12,466 nt of DNA from Candidatus Brocadiaceae bacterium. GTDB taxonomy: Bacteria > Planctomycetota > MHYJ01 > JACQXL01 > CAKKQI01. The notes beneath the pieces are model-generated. The model saw only the letters and a program-made list of their open reading frames with translations. It was not told the origin of the DNA and ran no database searches. The position numbers and the translations under genes are program-made. Within the stretch, counting starts at the first letter, position 1. Every line of letters begins with the position of its first letter. Positions 4,388-11,822 of the stretch are shown piece after piece. The stretch lies in NCBI GenBank assembly GCA_919901895.1, contig CAKKQI010000081.1:1-12466 (forward strand), written 5' to 3'.

Positions 4388-4750
4388 ATGACATTATCTC
4401 TTAAAAAGATTTATCTTATTTTATTATTAAGCGGCATTGTAATTTTTGTGCCGGTTTTGTTCTTATTTTCACTAACCCATGGTTTAAATGTTGCCTTGGG
4501 CGGACTCATCGGCATTTTTCCTTTAGTCAGTTGGGACCTTTTAGGCAATTTATTCAAACCGGAACAAAAAATTACAACCGGCAAAAAATTTTTATTCGGG
4601 TTGCTTGCTCTTTTAAAAATTTCAGTACTGGGTTTAATTATTTATTTTCTCACTCAGGCTAAATTTTTTCTGATCTGGCCGTTTATAATCGGGATGACCG
4701 CAATTTTGCTGGTAATGATTATTGTCGTTTTAATCTATTTTTCTAAATGA
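4388..4750 (+). CDS. Small four-helix membrane protein in the atpI position
   Basis: This 120-residue, strongly hydrophobic protein has about four predicted membrane segments: residues 7-28, 33-50, 66-87 and 91-117. A short positively charged loop (KPEQKITTGKK) lies between the second and third. It ends 7 nt before atpB and starts 43 nt after the protease fusion gene. AtpI (subunit I) of bacterial F-ATPases is a small membrane protein encoded just ahead of atpB and has been linked to c-ring assembly and Mg2+ supply. Size, topology and position fit that role, but AtpI is poorly conserved and I see no diagnostic motif, so the identification rests mainly on context. No clear Shine-Dalgarno precedes the ATG. 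The short AT-rich gap upstream shows neither a clear terminator nor a clear promoter, so the operon promoter may lie elsewhere. Confidence 0.6.
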   Translation: MTLSLKKIYLILLLSGIVIFVPVLFLFSLTHGLNVALGGLIGIFPLVSWDLLGNLFKPEQKITTGKKFLFGLLALLKISVLGLIIYFLTQAKFFLIWPFIIGMTAILLVMIIVVLIYFSK

Positions 4751-4757
4751 AGTTGTT

Positions 4758-5510
4758 ATGGCTGCTGAACAGCATTTACCAAGTGTTTTAACGCCGCTCT
4801 ACCGGAAACTTTCAGAAAGTAATCTCCTGCCCGAATTTCTGAAAGGCGAGCACGGCGAGACCTATTTCAAGATAATCATATCCAGCTGGCTGATAATGGG
4901 GTTTCTGATAATCCTGTCCCTGATTGCTACGAGGCGTCTTAATAAATCACCCGGCCGCCTGCAGGCGCTGATGGAAACCGTGGTTGATAGTTTGGGGGGA
5001 TTGCTTGATTCCTTAATCGGACCGGGCGGCCGAAAGTATTTGGGACTTTTAGGGACCACCTTTATTTTTGTTTTCTGCCTTAACCTGCTCGGGCTGATTC
5101 CCGGAATGATTTCGCCCACGGCCAACTGGAATTGCACAATTTCTATGGCGCTGGTGGTGATTATTATGGTGCAGGTCTATGGCATCAAGGAAAACGGATG
5201 GGGGGGGTATTTTAAGCATCTGGCCGGTTCGCCCAAGGGGTTCGCGATGTGGGTCATGGCGCCGATGATGTTTCCTTTGCATATTTTAGGAGAACTGATT
5301 AAGCCGGTCTCGTTATCATTACGATTATTCGGTAATATTTCCGGAGAAGATACGATTATTATTGCATTGGTTAATATGGGATTTCCGATGATGCCGCTTC
5401 AGATAGTGATGTTTTTCTTTGCGGTCTTTACCTCGTTTTTACAGGCCTTTATTTTTACAGCGCTTTCATCTATTTATATTATGTTATTGACGGCGCATGA
5501 GGAACATTGA
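4758..5510 (+). CDS. atpB: F-type ATP synthase subunit a
   Basis: This 250-residue integral membrane Fo subunit forms the ion half-channels next to the c-ring. The family signature is clear. SLSLRLFGNI carries the essential Arg (R189, equivalent to E. coli aR210) that interacts with the c-subunit carboxylate. NLLGLIPG marks the earlier conserved helix, and FLQAFIFTALSSIYI near the end holds the conserved Gln and Tyr-containing last helix. About five to six membrane helices are evident and the length is normal. It lies 7 nt after the atpI-like gene. Its TGA stop (5508-5510) sits inside the left 13-bp terminal inverted repeat of the element that follows, so that element begins exactly at the end of this gene. 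Confidence 0.97.
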   Translation: MAAEQHLPSVLTPLYRKLSESNLLPEFLKGEHGETYFKIIISSWLIMGFLIILSLIATRRLNKSPGRLQALMETVVDSLGGLLDSLIGPGGRKYLGLLGTTFIFVFCLNLLGLIPGMISPTANWNCTISMALVVIIMVQVYGIKENGWGGYFKHLAGSPKGFAMWVMAPMMFPLHILGELIKPVSLSLRLFGNISGEDTIIIALVNMGFPMMPLQIVMFFFAVFTSFLQAFIFTALSSIYIMLLTAHEEH

Positions 5511-5511
5511 T

Positions 5512-5551
5512 ACACGAATAAACACGAATTAATACACGAATGGACACGAAT
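5512..5551 (+). repeat. Left iteron array, four ACACGAAT units
   Basis: Exact ACACGAAT units lie at 5512-5519, 5522-5529, 5534-5541 and 5544-5551, with unit-to-unit spacings of 10, 12 and 10 nt. That is close to one helical turn, so all units would face the same side of the DNA. The ATG of the GxxExxY gene (5540-5542) begins on the last bases of the third unit, so the array also encodes the first residues (MDTN) of that protein. Confidence 0.85.
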
Positions 5552-5932
5552 CAGAGTAAAAAAGTAGAAATATTATACAAGGAATTATCATATAAAATAG
5601 TTGGTTGTCTTTACAAAATATATAATACTCTTGGCCCGGGTCATAAGGAAGATATATACCAGAAAGCCTTAAGGATAGAATTTGATAATAACGGGACAGG
5701 ATACCTGGCCAAAAAGAAATTAGTCATAGAATATGACGGCAAAAAAGTCGGTATTTATGAACCTGATTTTATAATTGAAGATAAAATAATTCTGGAAATC
5801 AAATCTGTTTTAACGATGCCAAAGGTTTTTGAAAAACAATTATATTATTATCTTCATGCTTCTGGTTACCGGTTGGGTTATTTGGTCAATTTTGGTTCCG
5901 ATAAAATAGAAATTCGTCGCCGCGTGAATTAA
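5540..5932 (+). CDS. GxxExxY family protein, PD-(D/E)xK nuclease-like
   Basis: This 130-residue protein has the family's naming motif at residues 34-40 (GHKEDIY) after an N-terminal helix. A PD-(D/E)xK-like core follows: PDFIIEDKIILEIK, with D76, E86 and K88 as the expected metal-binding and catalytic residues, all present. The family is short (about 125-130 residues) and its biochemical role is not established to my knowledge; nuclease activity is inferred from the fold motif. The start codon lies in the repeat array, so the N-terminus MDTN is repeat-encoded. There is no recognisable Shine-Dalgarno. The TAA stop (5930-5932) is within the first bases of the right-hand array. It has no connection with ATP synthesis and splits atpB from atpE, so it is best read as cargo or an agent of the surrounding element. 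The frame is intact, with no sign of decay. Confidence 0.88.
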   Translation: MDTNQSKKVEILYKELSYKIVGCLYKIYNTLGPGHKEDIYQKALRIEFDNNGTGYLAKKKLVIEYDGKKVGIYEPDFIIEDKIILEIKSVLTMPKVFEKQLYYYLHASGYRLGYLVNFGSDKIEIRRRVN

Positions 5933-5975
5933 TTCGTGTAAATTTGTGTTGAATTAGTGTGAATTCGTGTATCAA
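5927..5975 (-). repeat. Right iteron array, inverted relative to the left array
   Basis: Units of ATTCGTGT type lie at 5932-5939 (exact), 5942-5949 (ATTTGTGT), 5953-5960 (ATTAGTGT) and 5963-5970 (exact), spaced 10, 11 and 10 nt. This mirrors the four-unit array on the other side of the GxxExxY gene. The outermost 13 bases complete the perfect terminal inverted repeat. The segment 5927-5955 matches 9998-10026 before atpG at 23 of 29 ungapped positions. Confidence 0.85.
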
Positions 5976-5985
5976 AGGAGGTGAT
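5974..5985 (+). promoter_or_regulatory. Very strong Shine-Dalgarno of atpE
   Basis: AAAGGAGGTGAT is fully complementary to the usual bacterial 16S 3' tail. GGAGG lies 10 nt before the ATG at 5992. It decides the start: an in-frame ATG at 5959 would sit inside the repeat array with no such site. It is by far the best ribosome-binding site in the window, consistent with the multi-copy c-ring needing more product than the other subunits. Confidence 0.9.
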
Positions 5986-5991
5986 AAAAAA

Positions 5992-6327
5992 ATGGATTGG
6001 ACACCAGCGATGATCGCTTTAGCCATCGGGTTCGGAATGGCAATCTCCGCTTCTATTGGCGCACTCAGCCAATCACGCGCCATCTGGCGCGCTGTTGAAG
6101 CCATTGCCAGGCAGCCCGAAGCCGGCGGCCGGATTTTTACTTCGCTGATTATCGGTCTCGCTTTGATTGAAACCCTGGTTATCTATACACTCCTGGTTAC
6201 CGGTTTCTTCCTGCAGGGCAGTTTGAACGAGGTCATTAAAGCAAAGTATGGGAAGGATGCCTTGGACAACCAGAAAGTGATGGATACTTACGAGGCGGAA
6301 AAGAAAGCTAAAGGTGGCGTTCATTAA
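5992..6327 (+). CDS. atpE: F-type ATP synthase subunit c with C-terminal extension
   Basis: The c-ring subunit is recognised by the loop ARQPEAGG (residues 39-46) between two helices and by the ion-binding carboxylate E60 in LALIETLVIY. The ligand set is Q27, E60, T61 and Y65. These positions correspond to Q32, E65, S66 and Y70 of the Na+-binding Ilyobacter ring, while the T67 position is Leu (L62), as in proton-type rings. Helix 1 is poor in the usual Gly-x-Gly repeats and carries R29 and W32, which is unusual. The protein is 111 residues; most c subunits are about 75-90. The excess is a charged tail after FFLQ (about residues 77-111). The start at 5992 is fixed by the strong upstream Shine-Dalgarno. 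It lies directly after the GxxExxY cassette and is followed by a perfect hairpin. Confidence 0.95.
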   Translation: MDWTPAMIALAIGFGMAISASIGALSQSRAIWRAVEAIARQPEAGGRIFTSLIIGLALIETLVIYTLLVTGFFLQGSLNEVIKAKYGKDALDNQKVMDTYEAEKKAKGGVH

Positions 6328-7564: not shown

Positions 7565-8191
7565 ATGGAATGGTTATTTAATTATTTTATTCCTTATACC
7601 GATGCTTTTCCCTATATCGGGGTGGCTCTCGTTTTGCTGTTGACCGGTGTTGGTTTTCCGGTGCCGGAGGATATTATTTTATTAACAGCCGGTTTTGTAA
7701 CCGTTGAAGGGAAAGCGAATATTTATTTAATGATTAGTGTCTGTATGATGGCGATTCTGGGTGGTGATTTTATGATGTACGGACTGGGCCGGCGGTTCGG
7801 TGAAAGCGTGTTCAATCTGCGGTTTTTTGGGAAAATTTTCACTCCGTATCGTGTTTCCAGAATTCATCACTTTTATGAACGGCACGGAAAAAAAACTGTT
7901 TTTATCTGCCGGTTTACACCCGGCTTAAGGGCCGGGGCATATCTTCTGGCCGGCGCTTCCAGAATGAAGGCCTGGCGATTTTTGTTAATGGATTTTCTGG
8001 CTATCATTATCAGCGTGCCGCTGCTGGTCTGGCTCGGCTATGTCCTGTCCGACCAGATTAAAGAAGTTGCCCACTTGGTCAGCCAGACTAAACTCATCCT
8101 GTTTCTGTGTATTCTGGTCGTTATTTTATCTATTTTATTATACCGAAGGATTATGTTGAAACCACAGGTTCCGCTAAAGCGGGACGGATAA
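7565..8191 (+). CDS. DedA/VTT family membrane protein inside the atp operon
   Basis: This 208-residue polytopic protein has the DedA hallmarks. GFPVPEDI (30-37) is the acidic re-entrant motif, [14 protein letters not shown] (66-79) is the conserved Gly/Tyr/Arg motif, and [16 protein letters not shown] (115-130) is the F-x-R-x-x-P-G-x-R motif. Several membrane helices surround them, ending with one at about 172-194. DedA proteins include undecaprenyl-phosphate and phospholipid flippase candidates, and their loss affects envelope and membrane-potential homeostasis in E. coli. They are not a known part of ATP synthase. The gene sits between atpH (16 nt) and atpA (29 nt), so co-expression is likely. 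Its last codons, giving PLKRDG, are encoded by a degenerate copy of the CCGCT/AGCGG palindrome family, suggesting a repeat reshaped the C-terminus. Confidence 0.9.
8169..8188. repeat. Diverged CCGCTAAAGCGG palindrome at the DedA gene 3' end
   Basis: CCGCTAAAGCGGGACGGA resembles the perfect palindrome GTCCGCCTAAGGCGGAC found at 11707-11723, including the following GGA/GGG-rich bases. It forms CCGCT/AGCGG arms around AA. It encodes the final PLKRDG of the DedA protein. Relatedness is suggested by similarity and by the exact copy 250 bp downstream, but the short match could be chance. Confidence 0.4.
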
Positions 8192-8220: not shown

Positions 8221-9801
8221 ATGCCAATCAGACCTGAAGAAATTAGTTCGATTTTGGAACAGGAAATCACCAAATTTGAAGGCGCTTTAAAAATGGAAAC
8301 AATCGGAACGGTGCTTCAGGTCGGTGATGGAATTGCTCGTGTTTATGGATTAGACAAAGTAATGGCCAGCGAATTGGTAGAATTCCTACCGAAGGAAGAA
8401 GAGAAATCAGGCTCCGATAGTCCGCCTAAGGCGGGTGGGGCAGGCCGGACCGCTCATCAACCAATTTATGGCATGGCGCTTAATCTGGAAGAAGACCACG
8501 TCGGTTGCGTGGTGTTAGGCGATGATACTGTGATTAAAGAAGGAGACCAGGTTAAAGGAACCGGCCGGATTGTTCAGGTGCCGGTGGGTGAAGCGTTAAT
8601 CGGGCGGGTGGTTGATGCGCTGGGGCATCCCCTGGACGGCAAAGGACTAATTGTGACCGAGCAATTCAACCCGATTGAAGGGCGCGCCCCAAACGTCATC
8701 CAGCGCCAGCCGGTTAAAGAACCCTTGCAAACCGGTTGGAAAGCGATTGATTCTATGATTCCGATCGGCCGCGGTCAGCGCGAATTAATTATCGGCGACC
8801 GCCAGACCGGAAAAACTGCTCTCGTGCTTGATACCATTCTTAATCAAAAAGGAAAAGACGTTATTTGTATTTATGTCGCCATCGGGCAGAAGGCCTCAAC
8901 CGTTGCTTCCATTATCCAAACCCTGGAAAAATATGATGCGATGAAATATTCTATTGTTGTTTCAGCTAGCGCCAGCGAGCCGGCTCCCTTGCTTTACATC
9001 GCCCCTTACGCCGGTTGCGCCATCGGCGAATATTTCCGCGATAATAAAAAACATGCTTTAGTTATCTACGACGACCTTTCTAAACATGCGGCCGCTTACC
9101 GGCAGGTATCATTGCTTTTAAGAAGACCGCCCGGCCGCGAGGCCTATCCGGGCGATATTTTTAATCTGCATTCCAGATTGCTGGAACGGGCGGCTAAACT
9201 ATCAGATGCCTTAGGAGGCGGCTCGCTGACCGCTTTACCCATCGTGGAAACCCAGGCCGGCGATGTTTCCGGTTATATCCCGACCAATGTTATCTCCATC
9301 ACGGATGGCCAGATTTATCTGGAACCGGACTTATTTTATGCCGGTATCCGGCCGGCGATTAATGTCGGGTTATCGGTTTCGCGCGTGGGTGGGTCGGCTC
9401 AGATACCGGCGATGAAACGGGTGGCCGGCCGCTTGAGATTGGAATTAGCCCAGTATCGTGAACTGGCCGCCTTTGCCCAGTTTGCCTCAGATTTAGACAA
9501 AACCACGCAGGCCCAGTTAATCCGCGGGGAACGGCTGGTGGAAATACTCAAACAATCGCAGTACCAGCCGATGGATGTTGAAGACCAGGTAATTATTCTT
9601 TTTATAGGCACCAGCGGTTATCTGGACAGTTTGCCGGCTGAAAAAGTTCAATCATTCGCACAGGAATTCCAGAAATTCATTTACGAACACCATCCCGGTA
9701 TCCGTGAAGAAATCAGGAAAACAAAAAAGTTGGAAGGAAAAACTGAAGAAACGTTAAAGAAAGCGGTGGAAGAGTTTAAAAATAGTTATAAGAGCGTCTA
9801 A
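8221..9801 (+). CDS. atpA: F-type ATP synthase subunit alpha with palindrome-derived insertion
   Basis: This 526-residue non-catalytic nucleotide-binding F1 subunit alternates with beta in the hexamer. The Walker A motif is GDRQTGKT (192-199), and VSRVGG (386-391) carries the Arg finger R388. [20 protein letters not shown] is the usual conserved segment near the catalytic interface. The family length is about 500-513. The excess is an insertion in the N-terminal beta-barrel domain, about residues 57-81, between ELVEF and [10 protein letters not shown], where other alphas have only three or four residues. Part of it (SPPKAGG, 67-73) is encoded by the palindrome at 8419-8434. The last few residues (KSV) and the stop codon fall in the left arm of a 17-bp inverted repeat. 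It follows the DedA gene by 29 nt. Confidence 0.97.
8419..8434. repeat. In-frame palindrome AGTCCGCCTAAGGCGG inside atpA
   Basis: The 16 bases are identical to 11706-11721 downstream of the Bro-N gene. CCGCC/GGCGG arms surround TAA. Read in the atpA frame the copy gives S-P-P-K-A-G-G without a stop; TAA occurs only out of frame. It lies in a segment that other alpha subunits lack, so it was probably inserted, as Rickettsia palindromic elements insert into open reading frames. Confidence 0.75.
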
Positions 9802-9935
9802 CAGAATAACTTTATACCTACTCCGTATGTCATTCCTGCGAAAGCAGGAATCCAGATCTGAAAGTAACGGTCTGGATTCCCGTTTACACGGGAATGACAG
9901 AAAGAAGCATTTTTTCTCATTTTGTTAGACGCTCT
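9791..9935. repeat. Nested inverted-repeat element overlapping the atpA stop
   Basis: The outer arms are AGAGCGTCTAACAGAAT (9791-9807) and ATTTTGTTAGACGCTCT (9919-9935), complementary at 16 of 17 positions. The left arm contains the atpA TAA (9799-9801). A second, inner inverted repeat lies between them. No T-run follows the right arm, though TTTTTCTCATTTT precedes it. The 145-bp block looks like a miniature element or a large hairpin that replaced the end of atpA. A function as a transcript barrier before atpG is possible but not shown. Confidence 0.65.
9829..9898. repeat. Inner 28-bp inverted repeat, GTCATTCC...GGAATGAC type
   Basis: The arms GTCATTCCTGCGAAAGCAGG... (9829-9856) and its near complement (9871-9898) differ at only a few positions and surround a 14-nt centre. 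Each arm is itself a small hairpin (TTCCTGC/GCAGGAA, and ATTCCCGT/ACGGGAAT). This sequence type, GTCATTCCCGCG...GGAATCCAG, is a familiar dispersed repeat in many bacterial genomes and resembles the ATTCCC-N8-GGGAAT pattern of neisserial dRS3. The remaining gap to 9997 holds only a weak CCCGC/GCGGG stem (9977-9994). Confidence 0.75.
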
Positions 9936-9997
9936 AAGTTGAAACCTTTGTAGATAATCATGAAGTATGCATGAATCCCGCCCGTATGAGCGGGGCG

Positions 9998-10034
9998 AAT
10001 CAATTCGTGCTAATTCGTGTGTAATTCGCGGGAA
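9998..10034 (-). repeat. Solo ATTCGTG iteron array before atpG
   Basis: Units ATTCGTGC (10003-10010), ATTCGTGT (10013-10020) and ATTCGCGG (10024-10031) are spaced 10 and 11 nt, as in the array to the right of the GxxExxY gene, and in the same orientation. No left-hand array and no GxxExxY gene accompany it. It looks like a solo end left by excision or recombination, or an independent insertion. Confidence 0.7.
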
Positions 10035-11024: not shown

Positions 11025-11053
11025 GATAAATTGAGTTTTTGGAAATAAAAAAT

Positions 11054-11716
11054 ATGGCTAATGAGTTAATACCCGCCACGAAAATAGCCGTTTTCCGCGG
11101 TAGAAAAATCCGTAAGGCCATCCATAAAAACGAATGGTGGTTTTCAGTAGTAGACGTATGTGAAGTATTAACAGAGAGTATTGATGCCGGAGCGTATTGG
11201 AGAAAGTTAAAGCAACGCTTAAAAGAAGAGGGTAGCGAGGTCGTGACATTTTGTCACGGACTGAAATTAGAGGCATCAGACGGCAAAAAATACGAGACCG
11301 ACTGTGCCAATACCGAAAGTATGTTCCGCATCATCCAGTCCCTTCCCTCACCCAAAGCCGAACCATTCAAACGTTGGCTGGCCCGGGTCGGATATGAGCG
11401 GGTGCAGGAAATAGAAAACCCTGAGATTGCCACCAAACGCACCCGGCTTTTGTATAAAGCCAAAGGTTACAGCGACGACTGGATAGAAAAACGGATGCGC
11501 GGTATCGCCATCCGCGAAGAACTTACCGATGAATGGAAAAAGCATGGCGTTGAAAAAGACCGGGAAAACGAGATTCTAACCGCGGAAATCTCCAAAGCGG
11601 CTTTCGGATTTACACCAAGCCAGTATAAAAAACTAAAGACATCCTATAATGAGAGGATGTCTGATTACACAGATACGTGCGAGTGGTCAGTAACATTCCC
11701 TCGGCAGTCCGCCTAA
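11054..11716 (+). pseudogene. Bro-N domain protein, 3'-truncated, between atpG and atpD
   Basis: This 220-residue frame starts with a Bro-N domain (residues about 9-100, from TKIAVFRGRKIRKAIHKNEW through the Bro-N-typical IIQSLPSPKAEPFKRWLA). A conserved C-terminal region follows (GYERVQEIENPEIATKRTR, YSDDWIEKRMRGIAIREELT, ILTAEISKAAFGFTPSQYKK). Such proteins are phage antirepressor-like or DinD-like and usually DNA-binding. Homologues I recall run about 270-290 residues and continue after YKKLK with a GLKRENLRDHMTDLE-like segment. Here family similarity stops at about residue 195 and the last 25 residues (from TSYNERMSD) are encoded by repeat sequence. So the gene appears cut short by the element beginning near 11637, and whether the product works is doubtful. 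A TTG start at 11039 is possible; ATG 11054 is preferred. It has no link to ATP synthesis. Confidence 0.75.
11637..11662. repeat. Perfect 9-bp hairpin at the Bro-N truncation point
   Basis: AGACATCCT (11637-11645) and AGGATGTCT (11654-11662) are exact complements around an 8-nt loop, ATAATGAG. The stem begins in the last family-like codon of the Bro-N protein (K195), so it marks the junction between gene and inserted sequence. Confidence 0.7.
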
Positions 11717-11822
11717 GGCGGACGGGGTGGTGAGGCTTCGGCAGGCTCAGCCCTTGAGTTTACCGAAAGGCGAAGCCGAACCACTAATCTGTGTAATCGC
11801 TATTCAAAAATCGGTGTAATCA
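11662..11822. mobile_element. TGATTAC...GTAATCA bounded element before atpD
   Basis: TGATTAC (11662-11668) and GTAATCA (11816-11822) are the same terminal inverted repeats as in the 41-bp element before atpF. Inside are GATTACACAGAT (11663-11674) and its exact complement ATCTGTGTAATC (11787-11798). The related ATCGGTGTAATC (11810-11821) lies 23 nt further on. The centre contains the GTCCGCCTAAGGCGGAC palindrome and a GGCTTCG/CGAAGCC pair (11734-11740 and 11771-11777). No gene is contained beyond the tail of the truncated Bro-N frame. Read as a composite of short non-coding repeats; mobility is inferred from the bounded structure. Confidence 0.5.
11706..11723. repeat. Perfect palindrome GTCCGCCTAAGGCGGAC
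   Basis: Bases 11707-11723 have perfect 8-bp arms around a central A. The first 16 bases (11706-11721) are identical to the copy inside atpA at 8419-8434. The Bro-N frame's stop codon (11714-11716, TAA) is provided by the centre of this palindrome. Confidence 0.8.

Follow-up and report, generated by a model that had tools for sequence, protein, structure and literature searches.

Our analysis of the junction between atpB and atpE in the window, by which the whole 12,466-nucleotide stretch of DNA is meant, suggests that the GxxExxY gene found there, together with the inverted arrays of a short word that enclose it, is probably one copy of a widespread small mobile, homing-like cassette with a Cas4/RecB-like gene as its core. 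Comparison of loci from many genomes shows the gene and the arrays recurring jointly at many unrelated sites, and it shows that the word varies between copies while both ends of a copy keep the same word. As far as the comparison of relatives goes, the atpB-atpE site is empty elsewhere and array-only derivatives of the unit exist. The same approach shows the unit lying in frame in essential-type genes, mostly of Patescibacteria, with near-identical inserts in divergent hosts at one loop of LepA. The unit, its mobility between sites and the tolerance of in-frame copies are thus derived from comparison, and recognition of the word and cutting by the encoded protein are steps that we infer.

The cassette at the atpB-atpE junction

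The features of the locus are collected in Table 1. The initial annotation had described four units on the left and four inverted units on the right, 10–12 nt apart, and these are indeed present, with one mismatch in two of the right units. The left array consists of four exact copies of ACACGAAT with a spacing of 10, 12 and 10 nt, and in the right array, spaced 10, 11 and 10 nt, the units at 5932 and 5963 are exact and those at 5942 and 5953 have one mismatch each. The inverted-word score of the locus is 8; as 1000 dinucleotide-preserving shuffles of the flanks never exceeded 6, a value reached in three cases, a chance or simple repeat was rejected. In the repeat search of the locus, arms of 24 nt with 88% complementarity were obtained. 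The outermost segments, TTGATACACGAAT (5507-5519) and ATTCGTGTATCAA (5963-5975), are perfect inverted copies of 13 bp, as had been claimed, but the outer TTGAT belongs at least partly to atpB, since CATTGAT is also found at the same place in the insert-free relatives L106 and L107, so that the element's own end is about 8–9 bp long. Further statements of the initial annotation were borne out by the coordinates: the left end of the cassette includes the stop codon of atpB (TGA, 5508-5510), the right end shares 2 nt with the Shine-Dalgarno sequence of atpE, and the start codon of the GxxExxY gene (ATG, 5540) falls within the repeats, namely in word 3 of the left array. The stop codon of the gene (TAA, 5930-5932) abuts the first right word.

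Table 1. Positions of the cassette and of its neighbouring genes in the window
Feature	Position	Strand	Remarks
Left word array	5507..5551	+	ACACGAAT at 5512, 5522, 5534 and 5544; linkers of 2, 4 and 2 nt
Right word array, inverted	5932..5975	-	ATTCGTGT at 5932, ATTTGTGT at 5942, ATTAGTGT at 5953, ATTCGTGT at 5963
GxxExxY gene, 130 aa, predicted PD-(D/E)xK nuclease (PF13366 / TIGR04256)	5540..5932	+	Profile matches
13-bp terminal inverted repeat, left half	5507..5519	+	At least part of the outer 5 bp belongs to atpB
13-bp terminal inverted repeat, right half	5963..5975	-	2-nt overlap with the atpE Shine-Dalgarno sequence AAAGGAGG (5974-5981)
atpB, left host gene of the insertion	4758..5510	+	Open reading frame and comparison with relatives
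atpE, right host gene of the insertion	5992..6327	+	ATG at 5992; named by eye

No Rfam match was obtained between positions 4700 and 6400 of the window, on which ground a known RNA family was rejected for the cassette; this and its site between atpB and atpE set the locus apart from a 23S rRNA intervening sequence.

Several other observations were made in the atp region of the window. In the atpA-atpG gap (9790-9937), 13-bp inverted ends (AGAGCGTCTAACA and TGTTAGACGCTCT) enclose a longer palindrome, which looks like another short palindromic element, and just 5' of atpG (10003-10030) lies a one-sided, gene-free array of ATTCGTGC- and ATTCGTGT-type words. Between atpG and atpD (11660-11810), GATTACACAGAT and ATCTGTGTAATC stand about 120 nt apart and constitute a gene-free CACAGAT element; a gene with a Bro-N domain (11039-11716) overlaps this element with its 3' end. 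The atp operon also contains, between atpH and atpA (7565-8191), a gene for a predicted membrane protein that looks DedA-like by eye.

The window gene is a member of the GxxExxY/PDDEXK_3 family, as its product matches PF13366 of Pfam (E 5.3e-33, 114.3 bits against a cut-off of 22) and TIGR04256 of NCBIfam (E 3.9e-34, 117.5 bits against a cut-off of 35), in both cases above the curated cut-offs. The protein keeps E37, D76, E86, K88, Q100 and Y104, and in an alignment of 54 sequences E37, D76 and K88 are invariant and E86 is nearly so; neither this alignment nor the tree included the remnant L006 or any locus whose gene contains stops. A structure model of the protein has a pLDDT of 92.9 and its closest folds are PD-(D/E)xK nucleases, the fold being Cas4/RecB-like. 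The catalytic domain of I-Bth0305I is among the Foldseek matches (E 0.017), and a PDB profile search with the family alignment gave weak matches, the best ones at E 0.13 (4ic1) and 0.14 (T7 endonuclease I). By its catalytic D, its ExK and its modelled fold the protein is a PD-(D/E)xK superfamily member with predicted nuclease activity. Cas4 proteins possess four conserved cysteines which belong to an Fe-S cluster. In this respect GxxExxY proteins differ from Cas4 and RecB-family nucleases, as no cysteine column is found among the invariant or nearly invariant columns of the 54 sequences.

GxxExxY genes were found in 70 of 149 genomes sampled across the phylum of the window. In the literature searched, which was available in part and excluded most subscription papers and all bioRxiv preprints, we found no function assigned to GxxExxY, nothing on its mobility, and no description of word arrays around GxxExxY genes or of GxxExxY inside LepA.

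The atpB-atpE junctions of 17 relatives were judged by eye. Twelve of them, including the closest one (AtpB 85% identical), have neither an array nor an extra gene there, so that the comparison suggested by the initial annotation did yield empty sites. The GxxExxY cassette is present at this junction in none of the 17, and a gene without the repeats, which would have spoken against the reading of the initial annotation, is found in none of them either, one genome of the genus having been sampled. Gene-free inverted arrays of other words occupy the junctions of L105, L114, L115 and L117, and in L103 an IVP four-helix-bundle gene (PF05635, E 1.1e-27) lies between its own arrays and is followed by atpE. 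A partial GxxExxY gene is located about 1.2 kb upstream of atpB in L102 (genome G152), a close relative with an empty atpB-atpE junction, where it lies in the first 300 nt of the locus as read on the atpB strand.

The source assembly itself contains five full GxxExxY genes and one remnant. Different words accompany three of the four other full copies (ACACGGAT-type at L001, AACAGATT at L002 and CGGATTA-type at L004), and the fourth, L003, has an inverted-word score of 4. Close pairs of ACACGAAT occur at seven other places of the genome (L007, L008, L012, L013, L015, L016 and L018), on contigs that carry no GxxExxY match. One of these, L013, is compact and has both arrays and a stretch resembling the start of the window gene (CACGAATTAGAGTAAAA compared with CACGAATCAGAGTAAAA), and judging from this it looks like an internal deletion derivative of the cassette. 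A copy of a fixed iteron family was rejected because the word differs per copy, even within the source genome, and for the same reason the term iteron, which had been used in the initial annotation, is a loose fit.

Word arrays and the genes they enclose

A scan of named genomes provided 48 relatives from Omnitrophota, Elusimicrobia, Patescibacteria, Bacteroidota, Stahlbacteria and others. When an inverted-word score of at least 6 is taken as the threshold, arrays are found at 78 of 120 GxxExxY loci from many phyla, including genomes of the window's phylum, and 42 loci remain below it; nine of 129 GxxExxY matches had been left out as partial or for a short flank. The same score was reached by 12 of 410 shuffles, by 13 of 197 ordinary ORFs taken from these loci and by one of 25 PIN-domain genes, from which the short L274 had been left out (Fisher p 6e-9 against 78 of 120). 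Words in direct orientation reached it at 13 of 82 GxxExxY loci.

For 29 loci with a score of at least 6 and a 10-nt pair on both sides, the identity of left and right words is 0.905 compared with 0.432 when loci are shuffled, and that of the linkers is 0.466 compared with 0.297, 6 of 2000 shuffles being as high. This bears on the suggestion that the element works at the RNA level, in which case the arrays would pair in the transcript and the gene in the loop would be trimmed by RNase III or a similar enzyme, as happens in 23S rRNA intervening sequences, so that insertion would be tolerated and movement would be secondary. A continuous stem would favour matching words and linkers alike, yet the linkers match far less than the words; in addition, in LepA, transketolase and others the insert continues the host frame without interruption, which removal from the RNA would not require. 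We therefore regard this explanation as improbable, even though the predicted fold of this segment of the window is a stem in which every one of the four words is paired (-109 compared with -92.1 ± 5.5 kcal/mol for 100 shuffles, z -3.1) and rRNA intervening sequences are known to carry IVP genes (PMC11270868; PMC4990558).

The words around GxxExxY genes are A-rich. Their spacing in the relatives is 8–10 nt with a peak at 10, and the spacing of one helical turn emphasized in the initial annotation is accordingly the commonest one without being universal. At least three words of the class C[AG]C[AG][AG]A[GT] flank 54 of 120 GxxExxY loci and one of 54 IVP loci (L146, with CACGGAG), suggesting that the word class tracks the gene between the arms, L146 excepted. 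On the GxxExxY protein tree the word changes 31 times compared with 40.4 ± 1.5 times when shuffled (56 loci with a word), meaning that it tracks the tree beyond chance, yet changes often. At one syntenic place in four flavobacteria (Tamlana twice, Confluentibacter and Bizionia), the GxxExxY copies of both Tamlana genomes have CACAGATT at both ends, that of Confluentibacter has CACTAATT, CACAAATT and CACGAATT, and that of Bizionia has CACGAATT/CACTAATT at its right end, its left end being mixed.

Words that lie near one helical turn apart and extend over the start codon and the two ends of the gene could also be the binding sites of an ordinary gene, used for autoregulation or by another regulator and without any mobility. 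The mirrored copy at the 3' end, the gene-free arrays, the in-frame insertions, the empty sites and the near-identical inserts in divergent LepA hosts would all be left unexplained by such operators, which are disfavoured by these comparisons and appear very unlikely to us.

The layout of inverted arrays is shared by the unrelated IVP family. Among IVP genes of the phylum, 18 of 29 lie in such arrays (L145 left out for its short flank); in a larger set, from which 2 of 56 matches were dropped as partial or for a short flank, the numbers are 21 of 54 including three bursts and 19 of 31 when the 23 rows of the bursts are left out as well. IVP words are G/T-rich with a spacing of mostly 9 or 14, and the IVP/S23 protein has a weak Pfam match to DGR bAvd. 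In the bursts (L161-L180, in genomes G079, G013 and G001), which have recently multiplied, a conserved GC-rich upstream hairpin, seen by eye, replaces the word arrays and perhaps represents another mobile form.

A pattern of three words of the class was counted 609 times, distributed over 44 of the 149 genomes, and the reversed pattern five times. Among 30 array loci, three have a GxxExxY gene within 700 nt, nine have an inverted partner, and 27 have neither a GxxExxY nor an IVP gene within 700 nt. The initial annotation had named arrays that are equally common without the gene as an argument against its reading, and here the result is mixed, 27 of 30 array loci being free of either gene and 78 of 120 GxxExxY genes being flanked. 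In Fisher tests, which ignore relatedness and incompleteness and overstate independence because of kinship, arrays are present in 34 of 70 genomes with GxxExxY compared with 10 of 79 without (p 1.9e-6), and, among the 99 genomes in which both families were looked for, in 25 of 48 with IVP compared with 4 of 51 without. Within these groups the effect of GxxExxY is non-significant (19 of 32 compared with 6 of 16 in IVP-positive and 1 of 11 compared with 3 of 40 in IVP-negative genomes), and IVP genes predict the presence of arrays no less well than GxxExxY genes do. Arrays are also found in 38 of 94 genomes with a Y1 transposase compared with 6 of 55 without. The words of resident genes match the gene-free arrays of the same genome weakly, in 5 of 10 genomes compared with 2.9 expected (85 of 2000 shuffles were as high), for 33 array matches picked by hand among the matches listed.

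As the unrelated IVP gene has the same architecture, and as arrays follow IVP and Y1 genes too, the mover may be shared and lie outside the cassette. The arrays would then be moved by a Y1/RAYT-type transposase, by a reverse transcriptase or by replication and repair alone, and GxxExxY and IVP would be cargo or helpers that settled between the arms, which would agree with two unrelated families in one layout and with the many gene-free array loci. Word class and spacing are nearly family-specific, however, as described above, and six array-bearing genomes have no Y1 match, some of them incomplete and one carrying 116 arrays. Moreover, when 12 Y1 loci were inspected by eye, at least 8 had GC-rich hairpins of the REP type in place of such arrays, and 3 of the 12 reach a score of 6 through these hairpins. 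With evidence on both sides, we consider a mover outside the cassette rather unlikely. Judged by eye, the Y1 transposase genes L255-L262 of the phylum show the classic RAYT layout, with GC-rich hairpins of the REP type in inverted orientation on either side.

In-frame insertions and the LepA loop

The GxxExxY reading frame is continuous in both directions with that of a host gene at seven of the 48 named loci, the hosts being transketolase (L030, L033), LepA (L031, L034), a P-type ATPase at a contig end (L032), RseP (L064) and RecG (L068). Six of the seven are named as Patescibacteria groups, L064 being the exception. The frame of L035 reads downstream into an Aconitase_C-domain protein. In L068, from Patescibacteria, the upstream RecG frame is otherwise open but holds two table-11 stops, and a recoded stop is possible.

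A search for long proteins, in which a quick tree on few columns was used, returned 274 with a GxxExxY domain among 487 candidates. The 120 listed of these comprise 105 with LepA/translation-GTPase domains, seven LeuRS, six GatB, one glycosyltransferase and one unassigned protein. As the 274 proteins come from several sources, an artefact of ORF calling was rejected for the fusions. When eight of the fusions with host proteins (L030, L032, L033, L064, L068 and the long proteins P0001, P0012 and P0020) were scanned with Pfam, the host domains and PF13366 were detected, and no intein domain. In-frame insertion into a conserved host protein, as in inteins, is thus a property of copies in other genomes, the window locus being intergenic.

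In LepA, the insert takes the place of a loop preceding the LNLIDTPGH motif. This loop is short in 97, longer than 80 residues in 67 and intermediate in 4 of the 168 proteins recognised by the motif out of 237, the other 69 being left out. P0122 and P0123 have a short loop. In P0121, which shares 83% identity with the L031 host across the searched region and was among the matches listed (120 of at least 7999 candidates scored), the loop is array-only, with an array-coded peptide and no nuclease domain. P0082 and P0090 have inserts that are 93% identical in hosts that are 55% identical, and for P0016 and P0018 the values are 100% and 70%. Over 102 LepA fusions, the correlation of insert and host distances is weak yet above 999 permutations (Mantel r 0.18). 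At this one site the phylogeny of the insert therefore appears independent of that of the host, as is typical of homing, the insert being partly inherited with its host. Horizontal spread into a single site would look like this, though recombination of gene segments could mimic the pattern and could be the source of the conflict between insert and host trees.

At a second LepA site, after PPP and before F[RQ]ALVF/F[RQ]ALIF, in-frame array-like peptides without a nuclease domain are found in P0001, P0011, P0121 and P0122.

Mechanism, known systems and significance

In the mechanism we propose for the homing-like cassette, the nuclease would recognise its word and nick or cut an array-bearing or related site, and the break would be repaired by copying the cassette in. 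Internal deletion would leave gene-free palindromic arrays comparable to MITEs, and the two ends may be kept alike through conversion between the arms or through shared recognition by the protein. The initial annotation had suggested a self-mobilising or homing-like unit whose protein binds or cuts the repeats. The joint recurrence of gene and arrays across phyla, their absence from the junction in 17 relatives and the homing-like pattern in LepA argue for such a unit, and the binding or cutting is a supposition.

REPIN-RAYT systems consist of a REP-associated Y1 transposase gene flanked by inverted REPs, and of dispersed REPINs. The cassette is similar in that inverted short repeats enclose one small nuclease-type gene and that repeats without a gene are numerous in the same genome. 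It differs from them in that its gene encodes a PD-(D/E)xK protein (PF13366 only) and not an HUH/Y1 enzyme (PF01797), in that its repeats are tandem words of 8–10 nt instead of single GC-rich hairpins, in that the word varies per copy within a genome, and in its in-frame insertion into coding genes. A RAYT system was rejected because the Y1 loci have another type of flank and because of the six array genomes without a Y1 match.

Rickettsia palindromic elements are palindromic, lie in frame in unrelated genes and encode a conserved peptide, according to a review (PMC10969869). The cassette is likewise palindromic and in frame in unrelated genes, and its array-only forms are the ones that resemble these elements, whereas the full cassette carries a nuclease gene in place of the conserved peptide. 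With homing endonucleases, such as those of inteins or the PD-(D/E)xK enzyme I-Bth0305I, it shares the insertion at one conserved site of an essential-type gene in many lineages and the tree conflict with the host. It differs from them by word arrays at both ends, by its many non-allelic sites, by a cleavage that is predicted and by the lack of an intein domain in the eight fusions scanned. As for 23S rRNA intervening sequences and their IVP/S23 genes, a small gene between complementary ends is common to both, and an IVP cassette is present at the atpB-atpE junction of L103, but protein, word class and the non-rRNA site of the GxxExxY cassette are different.

The cassette looks like an overlooked kind of mobile DNA. 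We tentatively put forward, as a possibility held with some reserve, that GxxExxY cassettes may constitute their own class of autonomous mobile DNA, in which a Cas4-like nuclease with an evolving address word at both ends would home into word-bearing sites, spawn gene-free palindromes and enter essential genes in frame as a tolerated domain, and that an unrelated four-helix-bundle family may run the same scheme with another word class. A mobile cassette of this kind would account for one of the common origins of short repeats in bacterial genomes. It would also be an example of a nuclease that spreads, in frame and without splicing, through essential-type genes such as LepA. As each cassette bears its predicted target at both ends, the word of each copy would make the protein-DNA specificity of the family directly testable.
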